Shown: positions 2,396 to 20,529 of the stretch, piece after piece
Position numbering within the stretch: position 1 is the stretch's first letter
How the letters are laid out: the number at the start of each line of letters is the position of its first letter
IMG/VR virus record: IMGVR_UViG_3300025093_000061
Coordinates: 1 to 35,310 of that record
Source of the DNA: a virus
Length of the DNA: 35,310 nucleotides
Reading direction: 5' to 3' (one strand)
The notes under the pieces: generated by a model
What the model was told of the DNA's origin: nothing
Databases searched by the model: none
The model's input: the letters and a program-made list of their open reading frames with translations, nothing else
Made by a program: the position numbers and the translations under genes

Positions 2396-4517
2396 TGATG
2401 AGCAGATCAATGACGTACTGTCAATGGGTCTGCATCAGGCCAGTGAGTTTGAGATCACTGACGCTGACAAGTTCATCAACCTCATCCTTGACAACAGTTA
2501 CAAGGACCCGTTAACTGCAACGTCAAGGGAGATTTGTCAGAACGCCAGTGAGGTGGACCCTGACTTCTATGTCCATCTACCTACTGAACTAGAACCTTGG
2601 TTCAGTTGCATAGACAATGGTCCTGGTTTGTCCAAGCCTGACCTGATCCGCTATGCCTCTGGTCTAGGTGCCAGCACCAAGGACAAAGACAACACCTCAG
2701 TCGGTGGGTTTGGTATTGGGATGAAAGTTCCCTTCACCATGGCTGATCAGTACAACATCATCTCCAGATACGATGGTATCAAGTACAACTTCACCGCGTA
2801 TAAGGATGAGTACGGCAAGGCTCAGTTTGTTGAGATGACTGCGCCGGTGGAGACTGATGAACCCAACGGACTGGAAGTGAAGGTGCCTGTTAGGTCCATT
2901 GATATCAGGGAGTTCATCAACAAATTCACCAATGCTCTCAGGTACTTCGACCCTAAACCTGAGACGAACGTTGAGGTGGAGTGGGGTGAACCTGAGTACA
3001 TCATGGAGGGTGTCGGCTGGGCTATTCGGAAGAAAGGTAAACGCTCGTATGGCGAGAAAAGCCGGGTCATCATGGGTAATCTATGGTACCCTATTGACTC
3101 GTCTGAAATCAGAGAAGATTACGGTGACATCTACGCCACTGCTCTTGATGCTCGTCTTGATATCACCCTTCCGATTGGGTCCATCGATCTTCCCCTTTCA
3201 AGGGAGGACATTCAGTACACACCACGTACCCTGAAAGTCATACGTGAGAAGGTGGACGAGATCGTGGAAGAGATCAGAACCACAGCACAAGATGTTGTCA
3301 ACCAATGTCCTGATGTATGGACTGCGATGAGATTCAATCAAGAGAATGACATCATCCGAAGGTTGAAGTTGACACTGAGGTACGACAACACTGAGTTGCA
3401 AAGCCATGTTGAACGATACCTACCCGCTACCACTGGAGACTTATACACCGTAGACCCTTATCGGTTTATCAGATATAAGACATTAAGTCTGACTGATAAC
3501 CGTGTCTTACGGCGTATCCAAGATAAGGTGAAGGTCCCTTATCAGGACAACGTCCAATGGTTCTTGGTAAGTGACAACGCCAAGCGTAAGCCATCTCGTC
3601 TGTTGTCCTATATGAAGGATACTTACGGTGACAACAGGGATGACATGCCTTATGCCTACCTCGTTTTCTACCCTGAAGGTGGGAAGGCAAAGGCTTTGAC
3701 ATGGATCAATGGCATTCATAAAGCTGCCAAGGTGACTGACTTTGATGCTGAAGTCCCTGACCTTGCACCCCTGATGAGGGCCACAGTACCCAAGGCACAG
3801 CGTAAGAAACTGGCAAGGGTGAAGATCATGGTCAAGGGGTATGGTTGGAGTACCCCTGATGCTCAATACTGGAGGGATGGGCCGGATGACTTTGATGTGG
3901 ATGAGAACACCGGTATCTGGGTGGCAACCAAAGCTAACCGAGTTGAGTTTGACACCTACCCATTCTCATGTTATGGGAATGACAGAGTGTGGGAGTTGGT
4001 CCGACGTATGAAACAGTTCGGCATGATACCAGAGGATACACCTATCTATGGGTGTCCTGCCAACGTCAAGAACAAGTTAAAGGATCACCCCAACTACCTC
4101 AGTTTGGAAGAGGCTTTAACCCTAAGTAAGGAGATTGTTCGGTCCTCTGTGAATCCATCCCTACAATCCAAGCTCATCACTGCACGTCGAGTAGTTAACT
4201 TCCTAAAGGAGGAAGATGTTCCTCTTGACATCGATGTCAAAGAAGGTTACTATAAACAGTGTAGTGATTACATTGATCTGCTGAACAGGAACAAGGAGAA
4301 TATGAATCTTGTTGATTATCTACTTAGTGACACTAAGTCTACTAAGATGGAACAACGAGTTGAGAAGATAGATACGATCATCAAGGAGAACTTCAAAGCA
4401 GACTACCCCTTGTTGCTTCGTCCTACTTCTTACCACAGAGCAGAAGACTTCGCCACTGACATTGCGGAGTACATCAAGATGAAAGCCCATATCATAGAGC
4501 AAGGAGTAAAACTATGA
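2382..4517 (+). CDS. rIIA: RIIA-like GHKL-family ATPase
   Basis: 711-residue protein resembling T4 RIIA, which with RIIB protects an infection against certain resident-prophage exclusion systems; its biochemical role is unresolved. The N-terminus carries a Bergerat (GHKL) ATP-binding fold: N-box TSREICQNAS (E50, N54), G1 loop DNGPGLS (D78) and G2 loop GGFGIGMKVPF (108-118). The rest is a long alpha/beta region without recognised motifs. ATG 2382 is chosen because GGAAGGGG at 2368-2374 is 7 bases upstream and no conserved sequence precedes it. The stop overlaps the rIIB-like start as ATGA. Palindrome copy 4 lies near the 3' end and encodes LSDTK. Confidence 0.85.
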   Translation: MKTVNDEQINDVLSMGLHQASEFEITDADKFINLILDNSYKDPLTATSREICQNASEVDPDFYVHLPTELEPWFSCIDNGPGLSKPDLIRYASGLGASTKDKDNTSVGGFGIGMKVPFTMADQYNIISRYDGIKYNFTAYKDEYGKAQFVEMTAPVETDEPNGLEVKVPVRSIDIREFINKFTNALRYFDPKPETNVEVEWGEPEYIMEGVGWAIRKKGKRSYGEKSRVIMGNLWYPIDSSEIREDYGDIYATALDARLDITLPIGSIDLPLSREDIQYTPRTLKVIREKVDEIVEEIRTTAQDVVNQCPDVWTAMRFNQENDIIRRLKLTLRYDNTELQSHVERYLPATTGDLYTVDPYRFIRYKTLSLTDNRVLRRIQDKVKVPYQDNVQWFLVSDNAKRKPSRLLSYMKDTYGDNRDDMPYAYLVFYPEGGKAKALTWINGIHKAAKVTDFDAEVPDLAPLMRATVPKAQRKKLARVKIMVKGYGWSTPDAQYWRDGPDDFDVDENTGIWVATKANRVEFDTYPFSCYGNDRVWELVRRMKQFGMIPEDTPIYGCPANVKNKLKDHPNYLSLEEALTLSKEIVRSSVNPSLQSKLITARRVVNFLKEEDVPLDIDVKEGYYKQCSDYIDLLNRNKENMNLVDYLLSDTKSTKMEQRVEKIDTIIKENFKADYPLLLRPTSYHRAEDFATDIAEYIKMKAHIIEQGVKL
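4322..4338. repeat. Palindrome copy 4 (ACTTAGTGACACTAAGT)
   Basis: Perfect 8-bp arms around A4330, about 190 bases before the end of the rIIA-like gene. It is in the same frame as copy 2 (LSDTK). It is the only copy outside the first 1.3 kb, and could regulate the rIIB/primase part of the operon. Confidence 0.85.
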
Positions 4518-5404
4518 TTAACAATTACCTCGTCACTTCAAGTCAAGTCACCATCATCACCGATGGTCAGACCCTCGTCGTACCTCAAGACCATGTCAGT
4601 TACCAACGGGTAATTGATTACCTCAAAGCCGGTGACTATGCAGAGGCGGTGAAGATTGCCGACGCTGCCCAAGCCATCAACACCTTTGGTCAAGGCCAGG
4701 TCTACGTTCAGGATGGTGTCGTCTATCATAACGGCAAACAACTGGACAACTCGTTGACCCGGCGCATCATGTCCATGGTACGTGATGGTTTCGATGTCAA
4801 CCCCATGGTCAAGTTCCTTGAGAACCTGATGATGAACCCGTCCAGCCGGGCAGTCAGTGAACTGTATCGGTTCCTTGAATGTAACAGTCTGCCTATCACC
4901 ACTGATGGATACTTCCTGGCGTACAAGAACGTCAACCAAGATTACAAAGACAAGTGGTCTGGCACGTTCGACAACAGCATCGGCGCTGTGTGTGAGATGC
5001 CCAGGAATGAGGTGATGGATGATCCTAACCAGACTTGCTCTGCTGGTCTGCACTTCTGTTCCATCGAGTATCTGAATGGGATGTGGGGTCACTCTGGTCA
5101 CACCATGGTAATCAAGATCAACCCTGCTGATGTGGTCAGTATCCCTGTCGATTACAATAACTCGAAGGGACGTTGCTGTCGGTACGAGGTTATCGCTGAA
5201 CACATGGACGGGAACAAGGACACCTTGTCTGAGTCTAGTGTGTACGATTATCGTGGTCTTTGTGAGAAAGCTTTTGACGAAGGGTATCATGCACATCTGA
5301 ATGGTGCAGACCCTTACGCCGATAACCCGTATGAATATGGGGATGAAGCTGAGGCATGGGAAGAAGGTTGGTTTGATGCTGAACATGAACTCGAAAGGTA
5401 CTAA
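4514..5404 (+). CDS. rIIB: RIIB-like protein
   Basis: 296-residue protein with the arrangement of phage RIIB-like proteins: a helical N-terminal half, then a C-terminal region around residues 125-230 with TTDGYFLAYKNVN and CSAGLHFCSIEYL. These match my recollection of RIIB-family C-termini; no search was run. AAGGAG lies about 7 bases before ATG 4514, which overlaps the rIIA-like stop. The last 40 residues are very acidic. RIIA and RIIB act together in T4, and the coupled order is kept here. RII pairs in T7-like phages are less usual than in T4-like ones. Confidence 0.8.
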   Translation: MINNYLVTSSQVTIITDGQTLVVPQDHVSYQRVIDYLKAGDYAEAVKIADAAQAINTFGQGQVYVQDGVVYHNGKQLDNSLTRRIMSMVRDGFDVNPMVKFLENLMMNPSSRAVSELYRFLECNSLPITTDGYFLAYKNVNQDYKDKWSGTFDNSIGAVCEMPRNEVMDDPNQTCSAGLHFCSIEYLNGMWGHSGHTMVIKINPADVVSIPVDYNNSKGRCCRYEVIAEHMDGNKDTLSESSVYDYRGLCEKAFDEGYHAHLNGADPYADNPYEYGDEAEAWEEGWFDAEHELERY

Positions 5405-9656: not shown

Positions 9657-9685
9657 TTGACAGCCTGATCTAGGCTTGATACAAT
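9657..9685 (+). promoter_or_regulatory. Strong sigma-70 promoter upstream of SSB gene
   Basis: TTGACA (9657-9662, perfect -35), exactly 17 bases, then TACAAT (9680-9685, 5/6 match to the -10). A start near 9692 would leave a leader of about 38 bases with TAGGAG before ATG 9730. It sits in the 81-base gap between polymerase and SSB, one of the few real gaps on this strand. Confidence 0.85.
9662..9676. promoter_or_regulatory. Inverted repeat within promoter spacer (possible operator)
   Basis: AGCCT (9662-9666), five bases, AGGCT (9672-9676): perfect 5-bp arms lying between the -35 and -10 hexamers. Its position would let a bound protein block RNA polymerase. The arms are short, so chance is possible. 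Confidence 0.4.
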
Positions 9686-9729
9686 ATACGTACACTGCAA
9701 CTCATGACCACATAGGAGTTAGATATATC

Positions 9730-10227
9730 ATGAGCAACCAAAACGAAGACGTCATCATCGAAGCTACCCTGTTCTGGCCGAACCTGAACCGTGTCAACGA
9801 CATGTCTGGCAAGTATCAGGTTGACCTTGGTGAACTGGACAAGGACTCCGTCAAGGCTGTGCAGAAGCTTGGCCTCACTGTCCGTACCGACGAACCCAAG
9901 GACGAGGATAAGCCGGATCGTGGCCAGTTCATCACCGCCAAGTCCAAGTACCCGTTCAAGGTGCTGTTCAAGAACGGTGTTGAGGTGGTGTCCTTGGATC
10001 GTGTCGGCAACGGCACCAAGGCCCGTGTCAAAGTCAACTCGTACGACTGGCAGTTCAAGGGTAAGAGTGGTTCTTCCCTCTCTGCCAAGGTGATCCAGAT
10101 CACTGACCTTGCAGAGTACGTGGCTGACGTTGACCCTGACTTCGCTGACTCCACCCCTGCGCCGGGTTCTGCTGCCCAAGGGGATGCCCTCAGTGATGAC
10201 ATCTCTGACCTGTACGCTGACGAATAA
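9730..10227 (+). CDS. Single-stranded DNA-binding protein, T7 gp2.5-like
   Basis: 165-residue protein with a beta-rich body (residues about 1-130) followed by a flexible, acidic C-terminal tail (DVDPDFAD, then Ala/Pro/Gly linker, then SDDISDLYADE). That layout is typical of phage SSBs, whose acidic tails contact polymerase and helicase. ATG 9730 is selected by GGAG at 9715-9718; upstream in-frame codons run into the promoter. Its own consensus promoter suggests high expression, fitting a stoichiometric DNA-coating protein. Sequence identity to T7 gp2.5 is not obvious by eye, so the call rests on architecture and position between polymerase and exonuclease. Confidence 0.75.
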   Translation: MSNQNEDVIIEATLFWPNLNRVNDMSGKYQVDLGELDKDSVKAVQKLGLTVRTDEPKDEDKPDRGQFITAKSKYPFKVLFKNGVEVVSLDRVGNGTKARVKVNSYDWQFKGKSGSSLSAKVIQITDLAEYVADVDPDFADSTPAPGSAAQGDALSDDISDLYADE

Positions 10228-10240
10228 GAAAGGATAGACC

Positions 10241-11083
10241 ATGACCTCGATTGATACCCTCGTACCTGACATCATGAAGATGGTTGATGAAGGCGTTGAC
10301 CAAGTAGATGACGCTGCCATCCACCAACTTCTGGCTGACATTGAATACGGTGTCCGTCGCCAACTGACCAAGTCTGAACGACAGCGCAGTGGCACACTCC
10401 GTATGTCCAATGTCGGGAAGCCTGACTGTCAGCTGTGGAATGAGTGCAACGACACTCCCTCAGAAGAACTGCGTCCGGATACTCGGATCAAGTTCTTGTA
10501 CGGGGATATCGTCGAGGCTCTGGTTCTATTCCTTGCCACTGCGGCAGGGCATGAGGTGAAGCACGAACAGAAGGAAGTGGAACTGAATGGCGTCAAAGGA
10601 CACATCGATGCTGAGATTGATGGTGTGTTGGTTGATGTCAAGTCCGCATCCAAGTTTGGCTTCAAGAAGTTCAAGGATGGTACGCTCCCTGAAGACGATC
10701 TCTTCGGCTACATGGGGCAGCTGTCCTCGTACAAACAGGCAGGAGGGTGGGACCGTGCCGCCTTCCTTGCCTTCAACAAAGAGAGTGGGGCCATGTGTCT
10801 CTATGAACCTGATGAGATTGACATTGATCACAATGCTGATCAGCGTGTTGACTTCGTCAAGGACATGGTCACTGGGCCTCAACCTGAACGGTCCTTCGAC
10901 GCCATCCCTGATGGTAAGAGTGGGAACATGAAGCTGGGTACACGGTGTTCATACTGTGCATTCAAGGACGAGTGTTGGAAAGACAGCAACGATGGGCAGG
11001 GATTGCGCACGTTCATCTATTCCAATGGTCCTCGTTACCTGACCCATGTTGAAAGGGAGCCTGACGTACATGAGCTTCCCTGA
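10241..11083 (+). CDS. PD-(D/E)XK exonuclease, Cas4/RecB-like with likely Fe-S cluster
   Basis: 280-residue nuclease. The catalytic core has GHIDAEIDG (D123/D127) followed by VDVKSASK (D132, K134), the D...DxK signature of the RecB/Cas4/lambda-exonuclease fold, then a QLSSYKQAGG helix. Four cysteines are placed as in Cas4/AddB iron-sulphur nucleases: one near the N-terminus (C63 in KPDCQLWNEC) and three near the C-terminus (C236, C239, C245 in CSYCAFKDEC). It presumably replaces T7 gp6 exonuclease in degrading host DNA, removing primers and recombination. AAAGGA precedes ATG 10241 and it follows the SSB gene by 13 bases in the same transcript. Confidence 0.88.
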   Translation: MTSIDTLVPDIMKMVDEGVDQVDDAAIHQLLADIEYGVRRQLTKSERQRSGTLRMSNVGKPDCQLWNECNDTPSEELRPDTRIKFLYGDIVEALVLFLATAAGHEVKHEQKEVELNGVKGHIDAEIDGVLVDVKSASKFGFKKFKDGTLPEDDLFGYMGQLSSYKQAGGWDRAAFLAFNKESGAMCLYEPDEIDIDHNADQRVDFVKDMVTGPQPERSFDAIPDGKSGNMKLGTRCSYCAFKDECWKDSNDGQGLRTFIYSNGPRYLTHVEREPDVHELP

Positions 11084-13528: not shown

Positions 13529-15216
13529 TGGGACCACAAGTAAAGGAGTGTGCGGACCTACATGCTACGAAGTACAGGCTGCCCAATGAATCGTTTGAAG
13601 AAGGGATCGCCCGTAACGCAGCAGCACTTTCCGACAACGAAGCACACCGACAGAAGCTTAGAAGCATTCTTGGAGAGCAACGATTTATGCCAGCCGGGCG
13701 AGTGCAATCCGCAATGGGTTCCCCTAGAGATGTTACCGCCTACAACTGTTTCGTTTCAGGAACGATTGAAGACTCGATGGAGAGCCTATACAAACGTACT
13801 GCGGAGGCGGCTGAGACAATGCGGCGAGGGGGTGGCATTGGCTATGACTTCTCTCGTATACGTCCTCGTGGTGATCGGATTGTCAGTCTCGACTCTTCCG
13901 CTTCTGGTCCTGTTAGCTTCATGCGAGTCTTTGATGCGTGGTGTGCAACGATTGTTTCAGCAGGTCACCGACGAGGGGCAATGATGGGTGTCCTCCGTGT
14001 CGATCATCCTGACATTGAGGAGTTCATCCGTGCCAAACGAAATGAGACTGACCTTCGTAACTTCAACATCTCCATCGGCGTTACTGATGAGTTCATGCGG
14101 TGTGTTGAGAAAGGAATTACCTTTGATCTGGTATTCGAAGGACGGGTTTACCGTACCATTGATGCTGGTGCGCTTTGGGATGAGATCATGCGAAGCACCT
14201 GGGACTGGGCCGAGCCTGGGGTACTGTTCATCGACAGGATCAATCAAGACAATCCCCTGTTCTATACGGAACGTATTGAAGCAACTAACCCGTGTGGAGA
14301 ACAGCCCCTCCCTCCTTATGGTGCCTGTCTTCTCGGTTCCTTTAACCTAGTTAAGTATGTCAATCCTGAAGGGAGGTTTAACTTTGACCTGTTTAAGAAC
14401 GATATCCCTCATGTTGTACGTGCGATGGACAACGTGGTGGATAGAACAAACTACCCTCTTGAGGAGCAACGTGAAGAGGCTCAGAAGAAACGTAGGATGG
14501 GTCTGGGTATCACTGGGACTGCCAATGCTATTCTCTTATGCGGTCATTCTTACGGTGATGACAGTTCACTTCGTCTTGTTCGTAAGATCATGAAGACCCT
14601 GTGCCTCACCGCATACGAGGCGTCGTCTGACTTGGCCACTGAGAAGGGTACGTTCCCGTTGTTCAGTGAAGAGTACCTTGACAATGAGTTCATGCAGAAG
14701 TTCCCTGATGATCTCAAAGCCAAGATCAAACAACAGGGTATGCGTAACAGTCACCTGATCAGCATTGCACCCACTGGCACCATCTCCTTCACCGCTGACA
14801 ACATCAGCAGTGGTATCGAGCCGGTGTTTGCGTACGAGGTACACCGTACTGTGGAGACAGAACTAGGTAAGGTGATCGTACCGCTGAAGGACTACGTCTG
14901 GAACTACCACGGCCTCAAGGATAAGACTGCGGATCAGTTAACTGTTGACGACCACCTCAACATGCAGATTGCAGTGCAGCCTTGGGTGGACTCAGCCGTG
15001 TCAAAGACCCTGAACGTGGGTGATGATGTCACCTTCGAAGAGTTCAAGGATACCTACCTCAAAGCATGGAAGGGTAAGCTGAAAGGAGTCACCACCTTCC
15101 GTCCCAGTGGTAAACGTTACGGTATTCTGAATAAGGTGGAGCCTGAAGATGATGTGTATGAGGACGGTGCCGCCTGTTTCATTGACCCGGAGACTGGACA
15201 GAAGGAGTGCGGGTAG
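13525..15216 (+). CDS. nrdJ: Class II (adenosylcobalamin-dependent) ribonucleotide reductase
   Basis: 563-residue reductase making deoxyribonucleotides. NPCGEQ (N255, C257, E259) is the radical-site motif, with C75 (AYNCFVSG) and C268 (GACLLGSFNL, 11 residues after C257) as the redox pair. The C-terminal C551 and C562 probably relay electrons from thioredoxin. No NrdB radical subunit or ATP-cone is visible, fitting B12-dependent class II enzymes as in SIO1/cobavirus-type phages. GGAGG at 13510-13514 precedes ATG 13525, which overlaps the MazG-like stop. The last codons are part of an 18-base direct repeat also found at the end of the next mini-gene. Host cobalamin supply would be needed. Confidence 0.92.
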   Translation: MMGPQVKECADLHATKYRLPNESFEEGIARNAAALSDNEAHRQKLRSILGEQRFMPAGRVQSAMGSPRDVTAYNCFVSGTIEDSMESLYKRTAEAAETMRRGGGIGYDFSRIRPRGDRIVSLDSSASGPVSFMRVFDAWCATIVSAGHRRGAMMGVLRVDHPDIEEFIRAKRNETDLRNFNISIGVTDEFMRCVEKGITFDLVFEGRVYRTIDAGALWDEIMRSTWDWAEPGVLFIDRINQDNPLFYTERIEATNPCGEQPLPPYGACLLGSFNLVKYVNPEGRFNFDLFKNDIPHVVRAMDNVVDRTNYPLEEQREEAQKKRRMGLGITGTANAILLCGHSYGDDSSLRLVRKIMKTLCLTAYEASSDLATEKGTFPLFSEEYLDNEFMQKFPDDLKAKIKQQGMRNSHLISIAPTGTISFTADNISSGIEPVFAYEVHRTVETELGKVIVPLKDYVWNYHGLKDKTADQLTVDDHLNMQIAVQPWVDSAVSKTLNVGDDVTFEEFKDTYLKAWKGKLKGVTTFRPSGKRYGILNKVEPEDDVYEDGAACFIDPETGQKECG

Positions 15217-15367
15217 TGCAGTTATCTGAAGCTATCAGAACTATCTACAAAGTTGAGCGTGACCGCAACTACTGGAAACAACGTTGTAAGTTGACAGAGA
15301 AGCAACTAAAAGATACTGAACAACTTCTGAGGTGGTACCAAAGAACTCATGGACAGAAGGAGTGCGG
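15195..15367 (+). repeat. 155-bp cassette bounded by 18-bp direct repeats
   Basis: TGGACAGAAGGAGTGCGG occurs at 15195-15212 and 15350-15367. Each copy encodes a GQKECG C-terminus and supplies GAAGGAG eight bases before the next start (GTG 15216 or ATG 15371). Removing the DNA between copies would leave RNR ending in the same residues, with a TGA, joined directly to the 15371 gene. Confidence 0.9.
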
Positions 15368-15371
15368 CTGA
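15216..15371 (+). CDS. 51-residue mini-protein with RNR-like C-terminal hexapeptide
   Basis: Helical, basic protein starting at GTG 15216 (M/V-QLSEAIRTIYKVERDR) and ending THGQKECG. GAAGGAG at 15201-15207 is 8 bases upstream. Its last six residues are identical to those of the reductase before it because both lie in the direct repeat. Two cysteines (24 and 50). It may be a recently inserted or duplicated cassette; whether its RNR-like tail has a redox role is speculative. Confidence 0.6.
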   Translation: MQLSEAIRTIYKVERDRNYWKQRCKLTEKQLKDTEQLLRWYQRTHGQKECG

Positions 15372-15523
15372 TGTCTGATATTGAAAGAGAGTTCGCGTAC
15401 CAGCAAGAGCAGCAGAAGAAAACAACCCAAGCCTACCGAGACAACTGGAACCACATATTCAAACCCAAGACCGAAAAGGAAGATGAAGATGTACGGCAAG
15501 GAAGCAATGGAAGCGATGAGTGA
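15371..15523 (+). CDS. 50-residue hydrophilic hypothetical protein
   Basis: Starts MSDIEREFAYQQEQQKKTT and is highly charged and glutamine-rich, likely helical or disordered. ATG 15371 overlaps the preceding TGA and uses GAAGGAG (15356-15362) of the second direct repeat. It overlaps the next gene by 35 bases. No family recognised. Confidence 0.6.
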   Translation: MSDIEREFAYQQEQQKKTTQAYRDNWNHIFKPKTEKEDEDVRQGSNGSDE

Positions 15524-15812
15524 ACACCTGATTGAGGATGCGTTCCACTACCCACAAGATATCCCTGTGTCACCTGAAGAGGATGAGGTATGGGCTTCGT
15601 ATGATCAAGGGCCTAAAGAGCCTGACCCTATAGTCAACACAGTGGTCAAACGTTTGCATGATCGTAGTGCAGAGGGTATGGAGAAGTACGGTGAGACTGT
15701 ACTTGAATGTCAGAAGACTACCACCGGCTGGATCGATGACGCCATCGAAGAACTACTTGACGCAGCCATCTACCTTGAACGTCTGAAACATAACCTGATA
15801 GAAGGAGAGTAA
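15489..15812 (+). CDS. Helical hypothetical protein, perhaps NTP-pyrophosphohydrolase-like
   Basis: 107-residue acidic, mostly helical protein. RSAEGMEKYGETV followed by WIDDAIEELLDAAIYLERLK resembles a common type of small phage protein with MazG-like helical hairpins (KYG...EEL.DA..Y). Metal ligands could be D/E in DDAIEELLDA, but the full MazG pattern is not present. ATG 15489 is 8 bases after AAGGA (15476-15480); ATG 15483 is possible. The location just after RNR is consistent with nucleotide metabolism. Confidence 0.65.
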   Translation: MYGKEAMEAMSEHLIEDAFHYPQDIPVSPEEDEVWASYDQGPKEPDPIVNTVVKRLHDRSAEGMEKYGETVLECQKTTTGWIDDAIEELLDAAIYLERLKHNLIEGE

Positions 15813-15813
15813 C

Positions 15814-16023
15814 ATGAACCCGCACCTTGAAGAAGTCCTTGAGAAGTTCCTTGACAAAGACGCCATCACTGTCTACACCCTGCAAGAGTTGGCTTATGAC
15901 ATTTACTCTGACGTTGACACCTTCTCAGAGTTCACTGGTGTTGACGGGGAAGAGATGCTTGATGCCCTTTGTCTGTTGATCAGTTGGTACGGAATACCTG
16001 GTGAGGACTGGGAGAATGATTAG
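15814..16023 (+). CDS. Small acidic hypothetical protein
   Basis: 69-residue very acidic protein starting MNPHLEEVLEKFLDKD and ending GEDWEND. GGAGAG just upstream sets ATG 15814, one base after the previous stop. Helical with aromatic residues in the C-terminal third. Function unknown. Confidence 0.7.
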   Translation: MNPHLEEVLEKFLDKDAITVYTLQELAYDIYSDVDTFSEFTGVDGEEMLDALCLLISWYGIPGEDWEND

Positions 16024-16027
16024 AAGC

Positions 16028-16192
16028 ATGACCAAGGAAGAACGCACCCAACAAACCAACGACATCGTTGACCACCTGATGCAAGTCTATCAAGAGATCA
16101 TCTCCGAACAACGAGAAACCATTGAACGACTACGCCATCAGGTGGCGCGAGATCAGAAAACGATTGATCGATTGGAGATGAAAGATGACTGA
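16028..16192 (+). CDS. 54-residue coiled-coil hypothetical protein
   Basis: Starts MTKEERTQQTNDIVDHL and continues as a heptad-like coiled coil (RETIERLRHQVARDQKTIDRLE), ending EMKDD. ATG 16028 or 16016 could be used; neither has an ideal Shine-Dalgarno. The last codons lie in a 21-bp repeat that also forms the start region of the following gene. Confidence 0.55.
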   Translation: MTKEERTQQTNDIVDHLMQVYQEIISEQRETIERLRHQVARDQKTIDRLEMKDD

Positions 16193-16507
16193 CAGTTTAG
16201 TTGAACGGTTACGTGAAGCATCCGAGCATAAATACCACCCCTCATACCCCAAAGCAAAGCTGACCCTTGAAAATCAAGCCGCTGACCGCATTGAGGAACT
16301 TGAGGCGGCGCTTGAGGAGGCGGCGAAAGGATTGGATTACTATGAAGAATGCATGGCGCTGCGCAAGGAGAACGATAAGTTATTATTCTGCCAGCAGTGG
16401 ATTGCGGAACAAGCAAGAGAGATTGAGGCTTTGAAGGATAAGATAGATCGGTGTGGTGTGAAGCACGTGCAAGCACTCAAAGCAACGGAGATGAAAGATG
16501 ACTGACA
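16174..16507 (+). repeat. 313-bp unit bounded by 21-bp direct repeats
   Basis: The same 21 bases (GGAGATGAAAGATGACTGAC plus A) occur at 16174-16194 and 16487-16507. Each copy encodes EMKDD and a stop for the upstream gene, the GGAG for the next, and its ATG-ACT-GAC (MTD) start. The enclosed gene and the following gene are paralogous in their first half, so tandem duplication is likely. Confidence 0.9.
16185..16505 (+). CDS. Coiled-coil hypothetical protein, paralogue of next gene
   Basis: 106-residue protein starting MTDSLVERLREASEHK with a long coiled coil (AADRIEELEAALEEAAKG) and ending ALKATEMKDD. It resembles Ead/Ea22-like small proteins common near variable regions of phages infecting proteobacteria; function unknown. 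GGAG (16174-16177) is 7 bases upstream. The AADRIEELEAAL and ALKATE segments recur in the next protein, and the gene is flanked by 21-bp repeats. Confidence 0.7.
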   Translation: MTDSLVERLREASEHKYHPSYPKAKLTLENQAADRIEELEAALEEAAKGLDYYEECMALRKENDKLLFCQQWIAEQAREIEALKDKIDRCGVKHVQALKATEMKDD

Positions 16508-17313
16508 AGATACAGAACAAGTTGCGGAAAGCCGCTGTTGGTATGGGAACGCGCAAGCTAGAGGACTATTTCTTCCAGATCACATGTGCCGAAGCTATTG
16601 AGGCCGCTCACCGCATTGAAGAACTGGAGGCAGCACTTAGTTCTATACGTGAAAAGGCATGGAACGAGCCATGCTCATATAATCTTGCAGATAAAGCCCT
16701 CAAAGCAACGGAAGCGGAAACACCAAACTGTCCGGTGTGTAATGATGATCCGCTTAAATGTGCCGATCACCTTGGATTTTGTCTTAGCGAGCCTATAAAA
16801 GAGGAAGCGGAAACACCAGAGCACCAAAAGACAGACGACCACATTGTTCGCTTGTCAGACGAAACGGCCATTGATTACGTTCTTCCAAACGACTACCTAG
16901 AACATAAACAAGACACGGAACAAAGCCTGAAATGGCAAGAAGAACGGCAGAATGAATTGGCGCACCTAGTAGGTAAGTGCCGACGCCGCATAGAAGCATG
17001 GGAAGAGCGTATGTTAGAAGCATTCCCGAGTGCTTCTTACCGCTACTCAAACTGGTGTGAGGAAGAAAGTGATCCCACCCCGGCATCCCACGGATCAGAA
17101 GATAAAACACTAGACCTGATATCAATAGAGTGGCAAATGTGTCTGGCTGGAGCGCCAGTGGATAAATTGCCCACAGAGCGGCGATCAGGCACAGAACGGC
17201 GGGTGTCGATGTCTGAAGAAAGCCCAGATGGAACAGGCTTTTGGATCGGAACTGGCTTTTATCCGAGCCGTCGTAAAAGCGCCAGACGGAAGTCAGACCG
17301 GCGAGAAGAATAG
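16498..17313 (+). CDS. Ead/Ea22-like hypothetical protein with Cys/His-rich middle
   Basis: 271-residue ORF. Residues 1-75 match the preceding gene (MTD start, AAHRIEELEAAL, ALKATE). A possible zinc-binding stretch follows (CPVCNDDPLKCADHLGFC, about 77-95), then an EAETP repeat, a helical acidic region, and a basic Arg/Ser C-terminus with ERRSGTERR and RRKSDRREE. GGAG (16487-16490) is 7 bases before ATG 16498. From 16793 onward it is fully antisense to a plausible membrane-protein gene, so the N-terminal part is more secure than the C-terminal two-thirds. Last gene of the plus-strand unit; no terminator follows it. Confidence 0.6.
   Translation: MTDKIQNKLRKAAVGMGTRKLEDYFFQITCAEAIEAAHRIEELEAALSSIREKAWNEPCSYNLADKALKATEAETPNCPVCNDDPLKCADHLGFCLSEPIKEEAETPEHQKTDDHIVRLSDETAIDYVLPNDYLEHKQDTEQSLKWQEERQNELAHLVGKCRRRIEAWEERMLEAFPSASYRYSNWCEEESDPTPASHGSEDKTLDLISIEWQMCLAGAPVDKLPTERRSGTERRVSMSEESPDGTGFWIGTGFYPSRRKSARRKSDRREE
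16710..16818 (+). repeat. In-frame 16-bp direct repeat, 93-bp period
   Basis: GGAAGCGGAAACACCA at 16710-16725 and again at 16803-16818, both read as (E)AETP in the 16498-17313 ORF and offset by exactly 31 codons. In addition CTCAAAGCAACGGA occurs at 16476-16489 and 16699-16712. These suggest modular growth of this gene by short duplications. Confidence 0.8.
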
Positions 17314-17332
17314 CAACAGCTAGGTCAAGCAT
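16793..17332 (-). CDS. Multi-pass membrane protein, lysis-region
   Basis: 179-residue strongly hydrophobic protein starting MLDLAVAILLAGLTSVW with four or five predicted membrane segments: AVAILLAGL, VLCLIAALWAIYPLAL, FATLLISGLVFYLLI, LLTYALPMLLCGVGTYLLG, HSAVLLAISGFVPCLVYVLG. It recalls a phage membrane-protein type with an early LxGG/L...R region and a late (E..GRL.FGAL) motif, often found near endolysin genes. ATG 17332 overlaps the stop of the previous minus-strand gene (TGATG), good evidence for translation. It is entirely antisense to the 3' part of the plus-strand 16498-17313 ORF. A holin-like or other envelope role is inferred. Confidence 0.65.
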   Translation of the reverse strand: MLDLAVAILLAGLTSVWRFYDGSDKSQFRSKSLFHLGFLQTSTPAVLCLIAALWAIYPLALQPDTFATLLISGLVFYLLIRGMPGWDHFLPHTSLSSGKKHSGMLLTYALPMLLCGVGTYLLGAPIHSAVLLAISGFVPCLVYVLGSRLEERNQWPFRLTSEQCGRLSFGALVFPLPLL

Positions 17333-17418
17333 CAGTCTCGCCCCATCATCCACAAACAAAAAGCAATAGCCCCGCAGATCATAGTGGCAAAGAACAGCCA
17401 GTATTCCATGAAGGTCAT
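17332..17418 (-). CDS. 28-residue single-pass membrane mini-protein
   Basis: MTFMEYW followed by a hydrophobic helix (FFATMICGAIAFCLWMM) and GRD. ATG 17418 is one base after the holin-like stop, with GGGGAAG upstream, and its TGA overlaps the next ATG. Size and place in the lysis cluster suggest a pinholin/antiholin-type or other small envelope peptide; this is inference. Confidence 0.6.
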   Translation of the reverse strand: MTFMEYWLFFATMICGAIAFCLWMMGRD

Positions 17419-17419
17419 T

Positions 17420-17803
17420 TTACTTCCCCTTTCCGAACCACTTGACCAAGCCCTTCACGCCGAAGCTCGCTGCATAGCAGATCAACAGAAGCTGCCAATA
17501 GAGCGGTGGGACATTTGCCGTCAAGACATTGAAGGCATTTGCCATGCGGGTAACCACACCATCCGCACCAATCGCCGCTGCGGTGAACATCACAATGAAC
17601 GGCGCAGTCGTTACAATCGTTAGGTACTCGTCTTTCCAGCTTTCCCCGCTGTTCTGGGCCTGGATCGTGTCCCAATCTTGGTCGCCTTTAATCTGCTGAA
17701 CTTCACGTTCATGTTTTGCCTGGGCCTTCTCGGCCTTGTTGGAGAGGTACTGCTTCCCGACGCCAAAGATGCCGGAAATTATGGGGCCTATAAGCGGGAT
17801 CAT
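17420..17803 (-). CDS. Holin-like membrane protein
   Basis: 127-residue protein. N-terminal hydrophobic segment (MIPLIGPIISGIFGVG), a charged coiled-coil stretch (KAEKAQAKHEREVQQIKGDQD), SWKDEYL, then two hydrophobic segments (IVTTAPFIVMFTAAAIGA and YWQLLLICYAASFGVKGLV) and a short basic tail. The SWKDEYL-TM-TM layout is typical of holins with two or three membrane segments from phages and gene-transfer agents. It would permeabilise the inner membrane to release the amidase. ATG 17803 overlaps the amidase stop (ATGA), confirming a lysis cassette. Confidence 0.7.
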   Translation of the reverse strand: MIPLIGPIISGIFGVGKQYLSNKAEKAQAKHEREVQQIKGDQDWDTIQAQNSGESWKDEYLTIVTTAPFIVMFTAAAIGADGVVTRMANAFNVLTANVPPLYWQLLLICYAASFGVKGLVKWFGKGK

Positions 17804-18219
17804 GCCGTGTCATCCAAGAACTTCTGGACATCAAAATTCGGACAGGTCTTGCCTGAATTCGGCACGTCATAGTGTCCCAGGATGTCAGGGTCATCATGCT
17901 GCCAGCAGAGGTCGCCAAGCAACCCGGCCAGTGCGTGGAACTGATCCTGCGTGAAGTTGTTTTCGTTGCCGCCGTCCTCGCCGCGACCACCAATGAGGCA
18001 CACGCCAAGGGAGTTCTTGTTCATCCCCTTCGCATGGGCGCCGACAACGCTTTCATCACGTCCTGCCTCAATCTCACCATTGCGCCGGATCACATAATGA
18101 TAGCCGATGTCAGACCAGCCATTGTCATTGACGTGCCAGTCCGTTATCTCAGCCACGCCAATATCCATCGACGGCATCGTGTACGAACAGTGAATAATTA
18201 TTGATGTGATTTTTCTCAT
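17800..18219 (-). CDS. N-acetylmuramoyl-L-alanine amidase, T7 lysozyme-like endolysin
   Basis: 139-residue zinc amidase clearly like T7 gp3.5. Shared segments: IIIHCS, ITDWHVNDNGWSDIGYHY, EAGRDESVVGAHAKGMNKNS, GVCLIGGRG, FTQDQFHAL. Zinc ligands H10, H116 and C126, with catalytic Y40 and K124, are all present. ATG 18219 overlaps the upstream stop and removes an unconserved leader. The protein begins right at the first beta strand, so it lacks the T7 N-terminal residues that contact T7 RNA polymerase; this fits the absence of a phage RNA polymerase in the window. It probably serves only in lysis. Confidence 0.93.
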   Translation of the reverse strand: MRKITSIIIHCSYTMPSMDIGVAEITDWHVNDNGWSDIGYHYVIRRNGEIEAGRDESVVGAHAKGMNKNSLGVCLIGGRGEDGGNENNFTQDQFHALAGLLGDLCWQHDDPDILGHYDVPNSGKTCPNFDVQKFLDDTA

Positions 18220-19394
18220 TCTGCCATCTCCGGTGTGACGTGATTGGATGCCACAATACCATATTTTTTGTGGTATGTAAGGCATTCCGCTTTCCGTTCT
18301 GCAAAGTATCCACCCCTCGCCGCGTAACTATCTTTCGCGCTCAAGGTCCGGTGCTGCTGGACCGTGCAACCCATGTCTTCCTTCACGTCAATCTTGATTT
18401 GGTGGTGGTAGTGTCCGGTATGGGCATATCGATACTTGCACTCACCCCAGATCGACGGGAACTGGGCAGCGAAGACCCCAGGCATTTGCGGCAGCTTGCG
18501 CTGGTGTCCGTGATGGAAGAACAATGCTGTCGCACCATGTTTAAAAGCGTAGTAAGGCAGGGGGCTTTGATCGACGGTGATACGCGGTTCGTTTTCATAA
18601 AGTGCTGCAAACATAGACCGCAACCAGATTGACCCGACAAGATCGTGGTTTCCTTCCGCCATCAGAATGTGAACTCTATCGTGCTTCGACAGCGCCATGT
18701 CCACGATCTGGCGCAATACCTTGATGGCTGTTTCAATGACCTTCTCTGCCCGCCCGTCTACGTCCAGGGGATGACCACTCATAGATGTTTCAGCCGTCAG
18801 CGCCGGGAAGTCAGAATGCAGGAAGTCGCCAAGCTGACATATCAATCCGGTGTCGGCGTCCGGCGACATTGCCATCATGTTGCCGAACGAAGACACGAGC
18901 GTATGCTGCGCGATGTCCAAGTCCCAGTTGTCCTGGCCCGTTTCCCGCGCCCAGGCTCTCATGCCGTGGTGATAGTCGGTAATGACGTACAGGTTAAGAA
19001 GGTCCTCATGCACCATCTGCGGCGGTTTGATTGGCTTGACCCTTGGGATTTCCGCCGACATGGCCTCAATGGCCTCCCGCATTGCCCTTTCCTGGGCCTC
19101 TTTGTCCGCCGTCGTCTTGACCCATTGTATCTTCTTCTCGCCCGTCTGGGCGTCATATAGGGTGCTAGTACCCCTCACCTTAAAGCCCGGTGCGGAGGGG
19201 TGAATCATGTCGTGATCGGGAGAATAGCCGTACTGCGCCGCCTTCACCTTGACCGCGTTGACGGACTGCCAGACAGAGTTGTAATTGACCCCTAAGTCTC
19301 GTGCGGCCTTACGCATAGACCCGGCAGCTTCGACAGCTTCAAGCACACGCCACTGGTTGTCCGTGCAATACGGACGGAGGTTTTCATCAGGCAT
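18216..19394 (-). CDS. HTH-metallophosphoesterase fusion protein
   Basis: 392-residue protein with two modules. Residues about 12-50 look like a helix-turn-helix (WRVLEAVEAAGSMRKAARDLG, then VNYNSVWQSVNAVK), of the kind seen in terminase small subunits and transcription factors. Residues about 133-370 are a calcineurin-like phosphoesterase: TDYHHG (D140, H142), QLGDFLHSD (D190), EGNHD (248-251), FFHHGH, HTGHYHH. The metal ligands appear complete. Such proteins occur in marine phages among lysis/structural genes with unknown substrate. DNA-targeted phosphodiester or phosphate removal is a reasonable guess. It overlaps the amidase start, so it is co-expressed late. Confidence 0.82.
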   Translation of the reverse strand: MPDENLRPYCTDNQWRVLEAVEAAGSMRKAARDLGVNYNSVWQSVNAVKVKAAQYGYSPDHDMIHPSAPGFKVRGTSTLYDAQTGEKKIQWVKTTADKEAQERAMREAIEAMSAEIPRVKPIKPPQMVHEDLLNLYVITDYHHGMRAWARETGQDNWDLDIAQHTLVSSFGNMMAMSPDADTGLICQLGDFLHSDFPALTAETSMSGHPLDVDGRAEKVIETAIKVLRQIVDMALSKHDRVHILMAEGNHDLVGSIWLRSMFAALYENEPRITVDQSPLPYYAFKHGATALFFHHGHQRKLPQMPGVFAAQFPSIWGECKYRYAHTGHYHHQIKIDVKEDMGCTVQQHRTLSAKDSYAARGGYFAERKAECLTYHKKYGIVASNHVTPEMAE

Positions 19395-19411
19395 CCCAGA
19401 AACCCTTGATT

Positions 19412-19852
19412 TTAGACTTGAGGCCGTTCGCCTTTGACCTTTTTGGCTAGGTGCGCCCAGACCAGAAGGTAGGCTTTCTTACCCGGCACCCGTGGCGAGA
19501 TCATTTCAAGGATTTGGGTGGGCTTGCCGCCCCAGTCCTTGTATGTGCCAATCACGCGAGAGATTACGAAATCCTGGCGCGGGATGTTCAGGCATAAACC
19601 AGAACCGCGCAGCACTTGATAAGCCGCCTCGCCATGCTCTTGACTAGCCGCGTCTGCCCGAGCGAACGCCATAATGGCCTGCTCGTTCACGCAAATCATT
19701 GTGATGTAGGGGATGCGCTGTCCCTTCTTAAAGCCGCCGTCGTGTTCGATCATCACAACTTCTGGCAGCTTGGGGGGCTGGACTGCTTCAGGCTGGGTGG
19801 TTTGGCAACCCGCCAAGACGATAATGAGAAGGAAGGCGATTAACGTAGGCAT
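19412..19852 (-). CDS. Lipoprotein, possible outer-membrane spanin subunit
   Basis: 146-residue protein with a type II signal peptide: MPTLIAFLLIIVLAGC, lipobox LAGC with Cys16 as the lipid-attachment site, then a short Gln/Pro-rich linker. The mature part is mixed alpha/beta without a recognised domain and longer than typical Rz1 proteins. Its ATG abuts the stop of a gene encoding an N-terminally anchored coiled-coil protein, the usual i-spanin/o-spanin order. Spanin function is therefore plausible but unproven; a superinfection-exclusion lipoprotein is an alternative. Confidence 0.7.
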   Translation of the reverse strand: MPTLIAFLLIIVLAGCQTTQPEAVQPPKLPEVVMIEHDGGFKKGQRIPYITMICVNEQAIMAFARADAASQEHGEAAYQVLRGSGLCLNIPRQDFVISRVIGTYKDWGGKPTQILEMISPRVPGKKAYLLVWAHLAKKVKGERPQV

Positions 19853-20185
19853 TTAGATCGCTCCTGATTTCCTCGCGGCGTCAATAAGCCTCTGCACCCT
19901 TTCCTCGGTGCGGGCCTGGAAATCAGCGGACTTGGTGTAATGCTCTGCCAATTTGTCAGGCTTTAAGAGATCGCTATGGACGCTTATCTTTGATTGCATT
20001 ACCGGGATAGTTTCGTTGATTGCGTCTATTTTGTCAAACGCTGCGCCGCTTGCTTTACGCAATTCTCGGATGAGTTCGCTGTTCTGTTTCGATAGACTTT
20101 CAAGCCTCACAAGCCAGACAACCAGTGTGATGATGGCGATAACCAGATACCAAATAGACTTTAGCTCTGACGCCATCTCCATCAT
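19853..20185 (-). CDS. N-anchored coiled-coil membrane protein, possible i-spanin
   Basis: 110-residue protein with one N-terminal membrane segment (IWYLVIAIITLVVWLVRL, about residues 11-28) followed by a long charged helical region (LSKQNSELIRELRKAS...). That is the topology of Rz-like inner-membrane spanins. ATG 20185 overlaps the previous stop (ATGA); ATG 20176 is an in-frame alternative. It directly precedes the lipoprotein gene. No sequence motif proves the role. Confidence 0.65.
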   Translation of the reverse strand: MMEMASELKSIWYLVIAIITLVVWLVRLESLSKQNSELIRELRKASGAAFDKIDAINETIPVMQSKISVHSDLLKPDKLAEHYTKSADFQARTEERVQRLIDAARKSGAI

Positions 20186-20529
20186 TGCAGCACCATAGGC
20201 AAGACGGTCGCCACCAGTGAAGCCACCAGACCAGCAATCCCCACCATCACACCCCAGACCACTGTCTGCTTGGTCTTAAGCTCAGAGAGTTCCGCAACAT
20301 ACTGCGCCCGTGTGTTTTGACGTTCTGCGTAGTCCTCATCTATACGTGCGTGGATACGCTGCACACCGTTATCGAACTTCTCTGTAAGGTTAGCGACAGC
20401 GGTCTTCATCTCAAGTTCTGCCTGTTCAGCCTTGCGACCTCTTTCCTCGCAGAAGCGTTCATGTGCCTCCACAATATTGAGGGCCTTTTCTGCAAGCCGT
20501 CGAGCCTCATGGTCAATTACCTCAGTCAC
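20182..20529 (-). CDS. Coiled-coil protein with C-terminal membrane anchor (XhlA-like)
   Basis: 115-residue protein: charged coiled coil (residues about 8-90) then one C-terminal membrane segment (VVWGVMVGIAGLVASLVATVLPMV). This resembles haemolysin-XhlA-type proteins associated with phage holins. The start is GTG 20529, directly abutting the preceding TAA. Together with the two following genes it forms a membrane/envelope set between tail genes and endolysin. Function inferred from topology only. Confidence 0.65.
   Translation of the reverse strand: MTEVIDHEARRLAEKALNIVEAHERFCEERGRKAEQAELEMKTAVANLTEKFDNGVQRIHARIDEDYAERQNTRAQYVAELSELKTKQTVVWGVMVGIAGLVASLVATVLPMVLQ

Follow-up and report, generated by a model that had tools for sequence, protein, structure and literature searches.

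Two genes on opposite strands, Q and M, overlap where the early and late units of a tailed phage converge, and comparison with relatives makes it probable that Q, an early gene, was extended by overprinting across M, an older lysis gene, and that both are translated. The overlap lies in the window, i.e., the whole stretch of DNA analysed, which is a 35310-base virus record, probably a fragment. Long antisense gene pairs are often written off as annotation noise. In the case of Q and M, relatives of M that do not have the overlap make the cost of the second gene readable from the composition of M, and the pair offers a clean test case for new proteins arising on the back strand of old phage genes, as well as for mutual regulation of convergent early and late units.

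Terminal genes of the converging units

Plus-strand genes lie on the left side of the window and include those for an RIIA-like protein and ribonucleotide reductase, and minus-strand genes on the right side include those for virion proteins, an exonuclease-like protein, an amidase, and a holin. The two units converge, and their terminal genes are Q (plus strand, early) and M (minus strand, late/lysis) (Table 1).

Table 1. Features around the point of convergence.
Feature	Position	Strand	Basis or remark
Gene upstream of Q; same leader, similar N-terminal IEELEAAL module; stop overlaps Q start	16185..16505	+	ORF, sequence comparison
Q leader, GGAGATGAAAGATGACTGAC	16487..16506	+	Identical to 20 nt at 16174-16193
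Q, 271-aa acidic soluble protein, last gene of early unit	16498..17313	+	ORF, L003 homologue, Shine-Dalgarno GGAG, common leader
16-nt direct repeat GGAAGCGGAAACACCA, copy 1	16710..16725	+	Sequence comparison
16-nt direct repeat, copy 2, just inside overlap	16803..16818	+	Sequence comparison
Two-strand coding overlap, 521 nt	16793..17313	both	Q1 faces M1, Q3 faces M2, Q2 faces M3
M, 179-aa polytopic membrane protein, last gene of late (lysis) unit	16793..17332	-	ORF, relatives, hydropathy
28-aa ORF, one hydrophobic helix; stop overlaps M start (TGATG)	17332..17418	-	ORF, hydropathy
Holin-like protein	17420..17803	-	phrog_2524; weak phrog_3427 holin
N-acetylmuramoyl-L-alanine amidase endolysin	17800..18285	-	phrog_822, Amidase_2

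The Q frame begins with ATG at 16498 and closes with TAG at 17313, which confirms the extent that the sequence-only reading had given it, and its product has a GRAVY of -0.90. Residues 1-98 precede the overlap and have a homologous, fast-changing counterpart in L003 (contig 3300006790_000853), which is the nearest and the sole close relative of the window and ends inside the Q/M pair; the C-terminal 172 codons are antisense to M. The leader of the L003 homologue is GGAGGTGAAAGATGACTGA, with a Shine-Dalgarno GGAGG. Searches of Q against Pfam, PHROGs, NCBIfam, and phage genomes gave no match above noise, and a weak NCBIfam match to HLGFF (E 0.038) was taken as noise. The AlphaFold model of Q is poor (pLDDT 46), and with this low confidence the C-terminus is probably a soluble acidic extension, either helical or disordered. 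The tandem early genes at the end of the unit have identical 20-nt leaders (16174-16193 and 16487-16506) and a common IEELEAAL module, which suggests a gene duplication. The two copies of the direct repeat flank a 93-nt stretch that is absent from L003 and holds the stop codon of M, and the repeat at the overlap border is plausibly the trace of a rearrangement at the junction.

M starts with ATG at 17332 and stops with TAG at 16795-16793, has a GRAVY of +0.70, and contains about five hydrophobic segments according to hydropathy. Its ATG has one base in common with the TGA of the 28-aa ORF, and that ORF begins 2 nt past the end of the holin ORF, so that the earlier description of a multi-pass membrane protein coupled by TGATG to the lysis cluster holds. 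The 28-aa ORF itself has a good codon score and is a candidate small lysis protein. Relatives of M were found on seven other viral contigs, with identities of 76% in L003 (over 136 residues), 40% in L015, 36% in L020, and 27-29% in L022-L025, and the family motifs WR..DGSD (or DGGD), RGMPGW, and LT.E..GRLS are held in whole or part. At least three of these relatives adjoin holin genes, in phages unrelated to one another: M directly follows lysozyme and holin (phrog_3427) in L015, a holin-like gene and lysozyme in L020, and a holin-like gene in L023. This position suggests that M could assist or time lysis. Phages with close relatives of the window's holin have no M, and their lysis unit stops at the holin or continues into another gene. 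M gave no match above noise to Pfam, NCBIfam, or PHROG profiles, including known holin or spanin families, and none of the scanned bacterial and archaeal genomes contained a relative; its AlphaFold model is also poor (pLDDT 55). For the family, often found right behind holin genes, the sole profile trace is a short, weak phrog_28834 match to L023.

The antisense overlap reported by the sequence-only reading is thus borne out by both ORFs, each with a plausible start and each open for more than 170 codons (all of M on one strand, 172 Q codons opposite M on the other). Its length was overstated, since the 540 bp given is the whole of M. In L003, the one close relative, both frames are also open as far as the contig end.

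Stop codons and the age of the Q frame

With the M protein held fixed and the codons of M shuffled, the Q phase of the window's M should contain 5.4-6.2 stops, and none occurs (P 0.0003-0.0006). The Q phase of L003, as far as the contig end, has no stops against 5 expected (P 1e-3). The other two antisense phases of the window's M show no stop depletion. Stops in one frame of relatives, which had been named as a sign of a spurious frame, were found in part: the six distant M relatives have 4-17 stops in the same antisense phase (4 in L015, 8-17 in L020 and L022-L025), none of them significantly depleted against the expectation from its own protein, and L003 is open.

Among the M relatives compared, M is therefore present on seven other contigs and the Q phase is open through M in the window and L003 only, a distribution by which the overlapping part of Q is younger than M. 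M is a real gene and the older member of the pair by the same comparison, because motif-bearing relatives exist in phages with numerous stops in the Q phase. Of 96 gene-by-phase tests covering the window, that of Q/M was the most extreme for the longest open run, and after correction for these tests the signal is borderline alone (about 0.03-0.06), which is why the relatives matter. Long antisense ORFs in L022, L024, and L025 were considered as counterparts of Q and rejected; they lie in another phase and match the expectation from the M protein.

Composition and substitutions in the overlap

Codon use was scored as log-odds trained on the other genes of the window, with 41 gene segments and their Q-phase antisense strands as controls. 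Control genes have a mean of 0.178 and a minimum of 0.052 (n=41), and the same-phase antisense strands a mean of -0.189 (sd 0.055, max -0.068; n=41). In the overlap, Q scores 0.000, above all 41 antisense controls, and M scores -0.058, below every control gene. Judged by this score, each strand of the overlap is a compromise between two readings.

The first codon position of M shows the same reshaping. Its purine content is 42% in both the window and L003, compared with 59-65% for four relatives of M and 66% for the holin and the genes of the window (Fisher P 2e-5). Since this position faces the first position of Q, the latter reaches 57% purine, closer to the usual 66%. The share of M residues with C/T-start codons is 48-51% in the window lineage vs 33-36% in relatives. 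Composition and stop depletion partly go together, since a lower number of A-start codons in M lowers the number of stops in Q; the shuffle test is an added signal, because it holds the M protein fixed.

The facing of the codon positions leaves almost no change silent in both genes, and any wobble change in M alters position 2 of a Q codon. Differences between the window and L003 number 46 at the M wobble position, 26 at M1, and 21 at M2, and this concentration at the wobble position makes M the dominant constraint; position 3 is the most conserved position of Q. Given the L003 M protein, the similarity of Q lies just weakly above chance (BLOSUM P 0.086, no-stop P 0.085), in a comparison with one relative and a pattern dominated by M. 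The window and L003 agree at every base, with zero silent changes, over two blocks of 92 and 72 nt (run-length P 0.001), which could reflect double constraint or, alternatively, recombination.

In L015, an ORF at 3427-3741 (-) of 104 aa runs 86 codons antisense into M in the Q phase. It has the operon's repeated leader GAAGGAGAAAGAATGATG, the motif of which occurs again at 4371 and 4670. As a homologue of Q it was rejected, its similarity being no more than M forces (P 0.13), and M of L015 has no first-position shift. It is apparently an early stage of the same process, one that does not carry signs of selection.

These data bear on the explanation that function is confined to M and the N-terminal module of Q, the C-terminal part of Q being a translated, useless run-on that is stop-free by chance. 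The substitutions, which track M rather than Q, are as such a run-on would have them, and L015 provides a parallel. Stop depletion, the codon score, and the first-position shift in both the window and L003 speak against it, and a useless run-on is not expected to bend the composition of M. This explanation is considered unlikely, though still a serious alternative in view of L015.

Origin of the overlap and known antisense pairs

In the proposed overprinting, M would be an old membrane-protein gene of the lysis cassette, which Q, with its duplicated N-terminal module, would have entered from the 3' side of M. The Q frame would then have lengthened through the whole of M, while selection purged antisense stops and shifted the codons and amino acids of M toward C/T starts, leaving Q codons able to begin with G or A. 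The Q product would most likely be synthesized in the early phase, from plus-strand transcripts, and M in the late phase alongside the holin and endolysin. The extension of Q may be beneficial, not just tolerated, and the C-terminal half of Q may have a function. A broader statement is rated somewhat less probable, though more likely than not: that a new protein half, some 170 residues long, arose antisense to a lysis-cassette gene via extension of an early frame, that M made room for it through a shift of about 13 percentage points in its amino-acid make-up, and that antisense transcripts from the pair might in addition link lysis timing to early expression.

A regulatory device could operate in the same region and is compatible with overprinting. 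Early Q transcripts, antisense to the mRNA of M, holin, and endolysin, would delay lysis, and late transcripts would silence Q. The units converge with the lysis genes directly past M, and, as the sequence-only reading had noted, a consensus terminator between them was not seen on either strand (0 matches in 16000-17900); over 15000-20500 the scan gave 4 matches vs 5.5 by chance, and it is a simple scan that many terminators escape. RNA families were searched for and none was found. A predicted terminator is equally absent from the equivalent site in the two relatives checked, L015 and L004, the latter with no M gene at all, and the layout is therefore not specific to the Q/M overlap. This explanation is given a small chance, below that of the useless run-on. 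That M is spurious and Q the sole gene is scarcely credible: the codon statistics of M are poor for the phage and M has no known family, but M homologues with conserved motifs occur in phages that have many stops in the Q phase, and this homology refutes the reading. As between a spurious frame and a genuine overlap, the two alternatives of the sequence-only reading, the comparative evidence supports the latter, with M ancestral and the overlapping half of Q overprinted.

Antisense overlaps are already known, and Q/M appears to stand out by its length, clear order of origin, visible reshaping of M, and unusually good sequence documentation. At least one antisense overlap of 50 nt or more was found in 490 dsDNA virus genomes, and such overlaps reach 2,351 nt over all viruses (PMC7017920); the antisense share of overlaps is 6.6% (PMC8903798). 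Q/M, an antisense overlap in a tailed phage, resembles these annotated cases, most of which are annotation only, whereas tests of Q/M covered which frame came first and how the two constrain each other.

A few bacterial and phage antisense pairs have experimental support (PMC9927249, PMC5810103, PMC5960689, PMC9936078). They include the antisense overlapping genes olg1 and olg2 in Pseudomonas aeruginosa (Kreitmeier et al. 2022, as cited in PMC9936078), and olg1-olg2 opposite gene 10 in the lysogeny control region of phage Fc02 (PMC9936078). Like Q/M, these pairs use both strands of a single stretch to encode protein, and that of Fc02 also belongs to a phage. Transcription or function of the olg pairs was tested, whereas Q/M is known from comparative sequence, and the Fc02 pair lies in a lysogeny control region, whereas Q/M lies at an early-late convergence behind lysis genes. 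In E. coli O157:H7, overprinted antisense genes include laoB, ano, and the oloz genes (PMC5810103, PMC5960689, PMC9927249). They resemble Q in being young antisense frames on older genes with a narrow distribution. The O157:H7 genes are short and stand-alone (177 nt for oloz0137 and 186 nt for ano), unlike the much longer overlap of Q, which extends, at the C-terminal end, a gene that also has a non-overlapping N-terminus.

Two longer antisense ORFs occur elsewhere in the window. The one at 4538-5386 (-), of 282 aa, lies over 4514-5404 (+) and has a longest-run P of 0.04; the other, at 9670-10410 (-), lies over 9676-10227 (+). In both, the number of stops is close to the expectation from the sense protein and its codon use.
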